A DNA stretch of 64,000 nucleotides from Thermoplasmata archaeon (GTDB lineage Archaea; Thermoplasmatota; Thermoplasmata; Lutacidiplasmatales; UBA184), in NCBI GenBank assembly GCA_021817245.1, contig JAKAVQ010000001.1, positions 276,265 to 340,264 of the forward strand, in the 5' to 3' direction. Positions 16,876 to 20,570 of the stretch are shown here, in pieces. The notes beneath the pieces are model-generated. The model saw only the letters and a program-made list of their open reading frames with translations. It made no database searches and was not told the DNA's origin. Numbering within the stretch: position 1 is the first letter of the stretch; every line of letters begins with the position of its first letter. A program made the translations under genes and the position numbers.

Positions 16876-17334
16876 CTACGTCGGTCCCGGTGCGCGGTCC
16901 CCGGCGAGCCGCTCGACCGCGCCCTTCACGTGCGGACGGGGGGAGACCCCCTCGAGGACCTCCGTCACGCGCCCCTCGGCATCGAGAAGGAACGTCACGC
17001 GCTTCGCGATCCCGAGCAGGCCGACCACGCCGTAGCGCCTCGCGATCGCCCGGTCGCGGTCCGCGATGAGCGGGAAGGGGATCGCGTACTTCTCCTGGAA
17101 CCGGTGCTGGGCCTCGACCGAGTCGACGCTGACGCCGACCACCTGGACCCCGGCGGCCGAGAGCTCGGGATAGTGCTCGGTGAACCCCCGGGCCTCGATC
17201 GTGCATCCCATCGTGTTCGCCTTGGGGTAGAAGTACAGGACGACCGGCCGGCCCCGCAGCGAGGAGAGCGTGAAGGCAGCGCCCTCGGCGGTCGTACCGG
17301 TAAAGTCCGGCGCAACGTCCCCGACCCCGATCAT
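16876..17334 (-). CDS. peroxiredoxin (BCP/PrxQ family), apparently 1-Cys
   Basis: 152 residues. A thioredoxin-fold protein with APDF near the N-terminus and YFYPKANTMGCTIEARGF, where the Cys after MG is the peroxidatic residue. Typical PrxQ proteins have a second Cys five residues later; here that position is Arg and no other Cys is present, so it should act as a 1-Cys enzyme needing an external thiol. It reduces peroxides in the cytosol. A GAAATACG box lies on the minus strand at about 17353-17360, overlapping the 3' end of the next gene upstream. Confidence 0.9.
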   Translation of the reverse strand: MIGVGDVAPDFTGTTAEGAAFTLSSLRGRPVVLYFYPKANTMGCTIEARGFTEHYPELSAAGVQVVGVSVDSVEAQHRFQEKYAIPFPLIADRDRAIARRYGVVGLLGIAKRVTFLLDAEGRVTEVLEGVSPRPHVKGAVERLAGDRAPGPT

Positions 17335-18411: not shown

Positions 18412-20091
18412 GTGCCACCCGCGGACTCGAACCTGCCCCTCGCCGAACGGCGACGTCCGACGCATCTCAAGGACGTGGTCGGCAACCCGCGGGCGAAGGC
18501 CGAGCTCCGTGCGTGGGCCGAGTCCTGGCAGGGGCCCGCCCCCCCGGCCCGTCGCGCGGCCGTCCTCTCGGGACCGGCCGGCGTGGGGAAGACCAGCGCG
18601 GCGCTCGCGCTGGCGAACGACTTCGGATGGACCGTGGTCGAGATGAACGCCTCCGACGCGCGGAACGAGCGGGCGATCAACCAGGTGGCCGGCCGGGCCT
18701 CGATCACGCACACGCTCGGAGAGACGGCCCGGGGGGGAAACACTCGCCACGCGCTGATCCTTCTCGACGAGGCCGACTGCCTGACCGGACGGGTCACCGA
18801 GGCCGCACCCCCGAAGCCGCCGGCGGCCCTGCGCGATTTCCTGCGGGATCGCTACGGGACGATCGAGGCCCTGAACGCCGCATATGGCCTCACGCCGTCG
18901 GCCAAGCCACCGCCCTTCGCCGACTGGGACGCCGTGCCGAGGTCCCCCGGGAACTTCGCGTGGGCCCGACGCCCGGAGGCACGGAGGGACATCGACGACT
19001 GGCGGGGCGCGGAAAAGGCGCTCGACCTTTCCGACCGGGGCGGGCTCGGAGCCATCGCGCGGCTGGTCCGTACGACCCGCCAACCGCTCGTGCTGACGGT
19101 CAACGACGAACGGGTCCTTACCCGCTATTCTCCCCTATTCCGGACCGCGGTCGTCCGGGTCCGGTTCTCTCCGATCTCCAATATCGAGGTCCACCGGACG
19201 CTCGAGCTCCTCGCCCGCGCGGAGCAGATCGCGCTCGCAACCGGGGCGATCGAGGCGATCGTACGGAGGGCGCGCGGTGATCTCCGGGCCGCCGCGAACG
19301 ATCTCGATGCGATCTCACCCTTGCCCGCCGGTCCGGTACAGCTTGGGGTCCTCGGCGTGCGGGACATCGGCGCCGACTTCGCCGCCCTGACCGAGGAGGT
19401 CCTCACCTCGCCGCGGTACTATCGGTCGGTGGAGATCCAGAACCGACTCGATGCCCCCCCGGACGACCTCCTTCCCTGGATCGAGGAGAATCTCGCGTTC
19501 TTCGCCCCGGACGCGGCGCACCGGGCTTCGGCGTTCGACGTGCTGGCGGCCGCCGACCGGTGCCTTTCCCGGGCCCGCCGCTGGCGGGTCTGGAGCCAAT
19601 GGAGCTACGGAGGGGAGCTCCTGACGGGCGGTGTGAGCCTCGCCGTCCGCGAGCATTCGATACCGGTCTCGGGGGAGGCGATGTTCCCCCAGTTCCTCGG
19701 CGAGATGGGCCGGTCGCGAGGCATGCGCGGTGTGCGTGACGGGATCGTCGCGAAAGCGGGGGCCCGGTTCCATCTCTCCCGGGCGAAGTCGCGGGACGTC
19801 TACCTCTCCTTCCTCGAGGAGGTCTTTGCCGGCGCCGCCCGGGCGGGTCCGGCACGCCCCCGCCTGCTCGAACTGGCCCGGCTCGCGACGCGAGAGCTCG
19901 AGCTCTCGGAAGACGAGGTCGGCTTCTTGGCCCGTTTCGAGCCGGACTCACGGGCGGTCCGGGAGATCCTCGACCGTCGGCCGGTCACCGAGCCGACGAC
20001 CGCACCGCAGTCCGACCTCGCGGAGGAAGCTCCCGCGCCGGCGCGCGACGCCCGCCGCCGGCAGCGCCAGCTGAGCGAGTTCGGCCCGTAG
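18412..20091 (+). CDS. rfcL: replication factor C large subunit with an inserted segment
   Basis: 559 residues, GTG start. Walker A GPAGVGKT is at 54-61, the MNASDARN motif at 78-85, and Walker B ILLDEAD at 116-122. Sensor 1 LTVND (about 228-232) normally follows Walker B within about 40 residues, but here roughly 75 extra residues (about 128-205) intervene. The C-terminus ends QRQLSEFGP, a PCNA-interacting peptide (Q-x-x-L-x-x-F). RfcL pairs with RfcS to load the PCNA clamp at the replication fork; rfcS is not in the window. The gene diverges from the aldo/keto-reductase-like gene with about 90 bases between start codons. Confidence 0.93.
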   Translation: MPPADSNLPLAERRRPTHLKDVVGNPRAKAELRAWAESWQGPAPPARRAAVLSGPAGVGKTSAALALANDFGWTVVEMNASDARNERAINQVAGRASITHTLGETARGGNTRHALILLDEADCLTGRVTEAAPPKPPAALRDFLRDRYGTIEALNAAYGLTPSAKPPPFADWDAVPRSPGNFAWARRPEARRDIDDWRGAEKALDLSDRGGLGAIARLVRTTRQPLVLTVNDERVLTRYSPLFRTAVVRVRFSPISNIEVHRTLELLARAEQIALATGAIEAIVRRARGDLRAAANDLDAISPLPAGPVQLGVLGVRDIGADFAALTEEVLTSPRYYRSVEIQNRLDAPPDDLLPWIEENLAFFAPDAAHRASAFDVLAAADRCLSRARRWRVWSQWSYGGELLTGGVSLAVREHSIPVSGEAMFPQFLGEMGRSRGMRGVRDGIVAKAGARFHLSRAKSRDVYLSFLEEVFAGAARAGPARPRLLELARLATRELELSEDEVGFLARFEPDSRAVREILDRRPVTEPTTAPQSDLAEEAPAPARDARRRQRQLSEFGP

Positions 20092-20129: not shown

Positions 20130-20570
20130 CTACGGCTCGAGCTTCGCCTCGACCGAGATCGCCACGTTCCCCTTCAGGGCGCCCGAGATCGGACAGCCCT
20201 GGCCGGCCGCTTTGGCCGCCGCCTCGAACTCGGCGGCGGTGAGACCGGGCACCGTGCCGGTCACATGAAGCTCCATGGTCGTGACCTTCCATCCGTCTCC
20301 GACCTTGTCGAACGTCGCCGTGGCGCGGACGCTGAGGTGCCGGGGGGGCTTCTGCTGCCGCCCGAGTCCCGCCGAAAGGGCCATGCAGAAGCAGGAGGCG
20401 TGGGCGGCCGCAAGGAGCTCCTCGGGGCTCGTCTTCCCGTCCGAGCTCTCGGTGCGCGCCGCCCAACTGACGGGAAGCGCACCGAACGCTCCGCTCGTGC
20501 TCTGGACCGTCCCGTGGCCGTGGATCAGGTCGTTCTCCCACACCGCTTGGGCCGTCCGTTTCGCTGCCAT
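20130..20570 (-). CDS. OsmC/Ohr family peroxide-detoxifying protein
   Basis: 146 residues. The two redox cysteines of the family are present in HASCFCM and QGCPIS, with PEELLAAAHA in front of the first. The SWAARTES segment indicates the OsmC rather than the Ohr branch. The family reduces organic hydroperoxides using thiols. TTAAAT on the minus strand at about 20595-20600, 25-30 bases upstream, is a likely TATA box and suggests a leaderless mRNA. Confidence 0.9.
   Translation of the reverse strand: MAAKRTAQAVWENDLIHGHGTVQSTSGAFGALPVSWAARTESSDGKTSPEELLAAAHASCFCMALSAGLGRQQKPPRHLSVRATATFDKVGDGWKVTTMELHVTGTVPGLTAAEFEAAAKAAGQGCPISGALKGNVAISVEAKLEP

Follow-up and report, generated by a model that had tools for sequence, protein, structure and literature searches.

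A glycosidase-like segment inserted in the AAA+ core of the replication factor C large subunit in one family of Lutacidiplasmatales archaea

Background

Clamp loaders are conserved across the whole of life, and a replication factor C large subunit (RfcL) carrying extra residues between Walker B and sensor 1 raises two questions: where did those residues come from, and what do they do there? The loop that holds them, running from Walker B to substrate-coupling helix 2, belongs to the unit coupling ATP to DNA and clamp. The insert also provides a natural test of how far that unit can be altered. A sugar-enzyme subdomain fixed family-wide in core replication machinery would be an unusual fragment capture. 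RfcL itself is known; the added domain is unreported in the open-licence papers that we searched, a limited set in which no earlier account of a GH42-like insert in RfcL was found. The 64,000-nucleotide stretch analysed here (the window) belongs to the order Ca. Lutacidiplasmatales, whose named relatives include L115, Ca. Lutacidiplasma silvani, and whose members live in acidic soils as well as in other acidic habitats (PMC9287336).

An additional segment between Walker B and sensor 1

The open reading frame in question is an archaeal RfcL by its match to family models over both the AAA+ domain and the collar. Its matches to the NCBIfam RfcL models reach E = 8e-72 and fall into two parts, interrupted at residues ~127 and 207, and NF003229 (E = 8e-72), divided around the insert, scores 242 bits, below its curated cut-off of 280. 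Walker A, Walker B and sensor 1 are all present in the sequence and in alignment A3, and the protein has in common with archaeal RfcL and eukaryotic Rfc1 the DEAD form of Walker B, sensor 2 (GDLRAA), the lid and the collar, as well as a C-terminal QRQLSEFG that resembles a PIP box, as in those proteins. One RfcL only was found in the window's genome.

Comparison with yeast Rfc1 by phmmer pairs residues 14-126 with Rfc1 302-431 and residues 207-303 with Rfc1 432-526. These two blocks are contiguous in yeast Rfc1, and therefore about 80 residues of the archaeal protein have no yeast equivalent; they all lie at a single site, between Walker B and substrate-coupling helix 2. An earlier sequence-only reading had proposed an insertion between Walker B and sensor 1 at 18793-19026, which corresponds to residues 128-205; the phmmer split bears this out, the interval is contained in the insert as we delimit it (residues 127-206), and the motifs it quoted (FLRDRYGTIEALNAAYG, ADWDAVPRSP and IDDWRGAEK) are all present there. 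The existence of an extra segment between Walker B and the helix preceding sensor 1 is thereby confirmed (Table 1). An insertion in the small subunit was also considered and rejected, since the RfcS of the same genome (L002) has an ordinary short loop.

Table 1. Features of the RfcL gene and its insert (positions in the window)
Feature	Position	Strand	Basis
RfcL, replication factor C large subunit, 559 aa	18412..20091	+	GTG start as listed; open frame
Walker A, GPAGVGKT, residues 54-61	18571..18594	+	Sequence; G54, G57, G59, K60 and T61 invariant in A3
Walker B tail, DEAD, residues 119-122	18766..18777	+	Sequence; D119 and D122 invariant
Whole insert, residues 127-206	18790..19029	+	Gap between phmmer stretches; comparison with other families
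Variable Pro/Ala-rich linker, residues 127-137	18790..18822	+	pLDDT < 50 at 127-132; pairwise identity 0.33 (126-137)
GH42 subdomain-H-like segment, residues 138-178 (LRDFLRDRYGTIEALNAAYGL...FADWDAVPRS)	18823..18945	+	hhalign, PDB profile search, Pfam
Insert helix 1, residues 140-148	18829..18855	+	AlphaFold2, block pLDDT ~95
Insert helix 2, residues 151-157	18862..18882	+	AlphaFold2, block pLDDT ~96
Second half of insert core, residues 179-202, with helix 188-200	18946..19017	+	AlphaFold2; conserved within family
Post-insert helix, residues 208-221 (DRGGLGAIARLVRT)	19033..19074	+	phmmer alignment; AlphaFold2 helix 208-221
Sensor 1, LTVND, residues 228-232	19093..19107	+	Sequence, alignment A3

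Resemblance to subdomain H of GH42 glycosidases

When the fragment from Walker B to the helix was scanned alone against Pfam, GH42 was the sole family found. Because the single-sequence matches were sub-significant (E = 0.027 in Pfam and 0.07 in the PDB), profiles were used. Among inserts from relatives, 18 of 27 matched the Pfam GH42 model, the best at 6.4e-4, and two from a divergent genus (g24) scored 23.1 and 23.9 bits when scanned alone, above the gathering score of 21, and 19.5 and 20.1 bits, slightly below it, within the whole open reading frame. Alignment of the insert profile with GH42 segments by hhalign gave a score of 61.1 (P = 6e-11), as compared with 20.1 for the best of 1000 column shuffles and 11.6 for the reversed profile, and when the full RfcL alignment served as query the strongest match covered residues 138-178. 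A search of PDB sequences with the insert profile placed 1kwg first (E = 9.6e-5), and 18 of the 19 hits up to E = 10 were to a GH42, agarase, beta-1,2-glucosyltransferase or beta-amylase domain. A tblastn search of all plasmids (7.3 Gb) with one divergent-genus insert ranked rhizobial DNA first (E = 0.005), annotated, where annotated at all, as beta-galactosidase, although many of these hits are near-identical copies from one species; the one rhizobial record examined (L174) is GH42-like, with an NEY motif upstream.

The earlier suggestion of a GH42 resemblance thus stands for residues 138-178, where the profile match is significant and nearly exclusive to GH-A type glycosidases, but is not shown for the part containing IDDWRGAEK. 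Residues 179-206 carry no sequence signal toward GH42, 19 of 200 shuffles scoring as high, and homology over the whole insert is therefore not supported by sequence. The identity of the fragment can also be refined: the piece matched is the region of subdomain H, not the catalytic site. It corresponds to Pfam GH42 positions ~149-197 only, and does not amount to the complete (beta/alpha)8 barrel, a domain of 376 positions.

With subdomain H of GH42 beta-galactosidases such as that of T. thermophilus A4 (PDB 1KWG) the insert shares the motif F-x2-W-L-x2-R-Y-G-T-I-E-A-L-N-E-A-W-G ... Y-x-x-F-x-E-V and, by prediction, a pair of helices followed by a strap; in the enzyme, too, the subdomain has been inserted into an alpha/beta fold behind one of its strands. 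Unlike 1KWG, the insert has no TIM barrel and no catalytic Glu, and its second half cannot be aligned by sequence. In GH42 the acid/base NE motif precedes the matched segment, and nothing in the insert corresponds to it; the nucleophile Glu is far outside the matched part, and the conserved FWSQ stretch is replaced in the aligned RfcL inserts by a Gly/Pro-rich loop. Going by residue numbers, we take the GH42 tryptophan that extends to the neighbouring active site to lie in this FWSQ stretch. Judged by its residues, the module is not an enzyme, because it has neither the catalytic glutamates nor the tryptophan tip that contacts the sugar. Agarases and other GH-A relatives (PDB 4BQ2 and 5Z6P) have the same motif and were also matched by Foldseek (5Z6P with an rmsd of 2.6 Å over 64 columns), but are enzymes of 700 or more residues and give sequence scores below those of GH42.

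The AlphaFold2 model of RfcL, built with 46 sequences, assigns residues 141-200 a block pLDDT of about 87-96 and places helices in the insert at the three positions given in Table 1 and at residues 183-186; modelled alone, the insert folds similarly (mean pLDDT 81). Among the 50 Foldseek matches of this model listed from the PDB, all are GH-A type or related glycosidases, namely GH42, agarase, beta-amylase, carrageenase-type GH42 and beta-1,2-glucosyltransferase entries. Alignments span 63-79 columns in most of the GH42 and agarase matches listed. Individual E-values are weak (0.05-2.2), and the Foldseek and AlphaFold evidence depends in part on the sequence motif itself.

Capture or convergence

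The sequence-only reading had left open whether the segment was captured or convergent. The data favour capture: we consider the insert quite probably a captured fragment of a GH-A/GH42 subdomain H, because of the very high profile-profile score, the near-exclusive match to clan GH-A and the matching predicted fold. Under convergence, the loop would have grown from RfcL's own sequence and come by chance upon the same helix-pair-and-strap peptide as GH-A enzymes, and a structural spacer or contact role could still hold. The similar stretch is indeed short (~40 residues), no donor gene was found in the order, and the loop is variable elsewhere in the order, as described below. We nevertheless regard convergence as unlikely, given a profile-profile score three times as high as the best shuffle, PDB matches nearly exclusive to GH-A type glycosidases, Pfam matches nearly all to GH42, and the fixed spacing F-x2-F/W-L-x2-R-Y-G-T-I-E-x-L-N-x-A-W-G ... 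F/Y-x-x-W/F-x-x-V/I maintained across two helices and a strap.

As to the source of a captured fragment, the order's 106 genomes yielded no full GH42 gene, only partial matches apart from those to RfcL, and in the window's own genome the insert profile matched nothing except RfcL; a local donor was therefore rejected. A search for a phage source gave no significant match. The notion that the ancestral insert was more GH42-like is likewise unsupported, mean scores against the GH42 segment model being 23.9 bits in g24 and 21.6 bits in the window's genus. Four open reading frames of 876-929 aa in g24 and g26 (L122, L123, L126 and L132) match Pfam GH42 positions ~7-64 above the cut-off, and are possible GH-A type enzymes.

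Distribution and constraint

The insert profile matches 87 of the 106 genomes of the order, covering all seven genera of the window's family, and the genomes of that family without a match are mostly incomplete. No RfcL gene was found in the four non-matching family genomes that were checked (G061, G071, G073 and G095). These are rated 91-98% complete, and three of them did yield an RfcS gene; the RfcL gene may fall in a gap of the assembly, have diverged strongly or have been lost.

In the sister families f2 and f3 the profile gives no match. The RfcL of f2 (L033, L034) has a longer acidic loop of ~24 residues at the insert site, and that of f3 (L032, G038) has, at the same point, an unrelated Lys/Glu-rich insert of ~80 residues, which the profile does not match even without filters. 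The region between Walker B and sensor 1 thus looks like an insertion hot spot in the order, and, being variable in f2 and f3, the loop tolerates expansion. In a sample of 390 Thermoplasmatota the profile finds the RfcL of the family and five weak matches, two of which (L193 and L197) lie in large open reading frames that by eye resemble GH-A type enzymes, although Pfam assigned no family to the L193 stretch. Among the RfcLs examined the module is limited to one family, being absent from those of the sister families and of other Thermoplasmatota (L041, from another Thermoplasmata family, has a short loop, NLSGNADRGG), and is not a general feature of archaeal RfcL.

Within the family, the insert core has 64-66 residues in 44 RfcLs, and its mean pairwise identity (0.47) may be compared with 0.58 and 0.60 in the AAA+ flanks, 0.45 in the lid and 0.49 in the collar. 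Arg25, Tyr26, Leu38 and Asp71 are invariant in the insert alignment A4. Random variation between strains, the other outcome that would have spoken against the earlier proposal, is ruled out by this conservation of sequence and core length across seven genera. The same observations bear on the view that the insert is a tolerated passenger, a stable folded spacer with no selected function, kept because its deletion would disturb the loop. The sugar-binding residues of the glycosidase have been lost, and neighbouring families manage without the module, as a passenger would predict; its fixed core length, an identity equal to that of lid and collar, and its presence in all seven genera make this account very improbable.

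Possible role in the clamp loader

The origin of the module is well supported; its function we infer. Helices at this site form a "central coupler" linking ATP, DNA and clamp (PMC8121543), and the side chain of yeast Rfc1 Arg434 enters the DNA minor groove (PMC9359705). In the phmmer alignment R209, three residues past the insert end at 206, aligns with Arg434, although an arginine at this position is not conserved in all relatives. An extra domain had been expected on the ATPase face of the loader; it is better placed in the loop leading into substrate-coupling helix 2, on the DNA-facing side, where it adjoins R209.

From this loop between Walker B and the DNA-touching substrate-coupling helix, a folded module would be able to reach DNA, PCNA or the next subunit. 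We propose that it may serve subunit A as a brace with no enzymatic activity, touching an adjacent RfcS subunit, PCNA or the duplex close to the clamp, and that such contact would stabilise the complex of loader, clamp and DNA or its gate. In the GH42 trimer the subdomain H region makes contact with the adjoining subunit (PMC7105311), and since this counterpart makes inter-subunit contacts, an inter-subunit contact would be the simplest reuse, for which reason the brace is favoured. Taken by itself, the brace function is a tentative proposal, with chances somewhat short of even; a captured GH-A module with a putative brace role, taken together, is the explanation that we moderately prefer.

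The main functional rival to the brace is a chamber plug or DNA reader, in which the module would project into the central chamber, touch or narrow the DNA path and alter the DNA ends accepted, as do elements of other loaders. The upper loop of Rad24 and the plug of Rfc5 (E-plug) narrow the chamber to 12 Å (PMC9010301), and the Elg1 plug fills it (PMC10906927); the Rad24 and Elg1 elements, together with the Elg1 locking loops and the CTF18 beta-hairpin (PMC11067034), are additions to an RFC-type large subunit that tune contacts with DNA, with the clamp or between subunits, and added elements are known to change the substrate (PMC9010301, PMC10906927). They differ from the present case in belonging to eukaryotic alternative loaders and in being different elements, at other sites where a site is stated, the Elg1 plug lying in the collar and the CTF18 hairpin at the N-terminus, and in the excerpts of these papers none of the Rad24, Elg1 and CTF18 elements is described as a glycosidase fragment. 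For the insert itself, proximity to the Arg434 equivalent, with its link to the minor groove, is suggestive only, and net charge ranges from 0 to +5 and is mostly positive, but this charge is weak, is not conserved and presents no strong DNA-binding signature. Moreover, because no other RfcL was found in the genome, the RfcL with the insert must still load clamps on primer-template DNA, and we consider a plug rather unlikely. That an exapted glycosidase subdomain has become a chamber-facing element changing which DNA ends receive PCNA is a long shot; if true, one archaeal loader would have gained a specificity that eukaryotes assigned to separate alternative loaders.

Variation in the ATPase motifs and neighbouring genes

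In the RfcLs of L092, L094 and L096 (g26 and g27) the Walker B DEAD is changed to DDVD or DDAD, so that the catalytic Glu is Asp, and in these three and in L099 (g24) Val, Thr or Leu takes the place of the sensor-1 Asn. Because of these changes to the Walker B Glu and the sensor-1 Asn, the RfcL ATPase may be weakened in g24, g26 and g27, while the insert is kept.

In the window, the rfcL region is flanked by genes at 16876-17334 and 20130-20570, both on the minus strand, which, judged by eye, resemble genes for a Bcp/AhpC-type peroxiredoxin and an OsmC-type protein.
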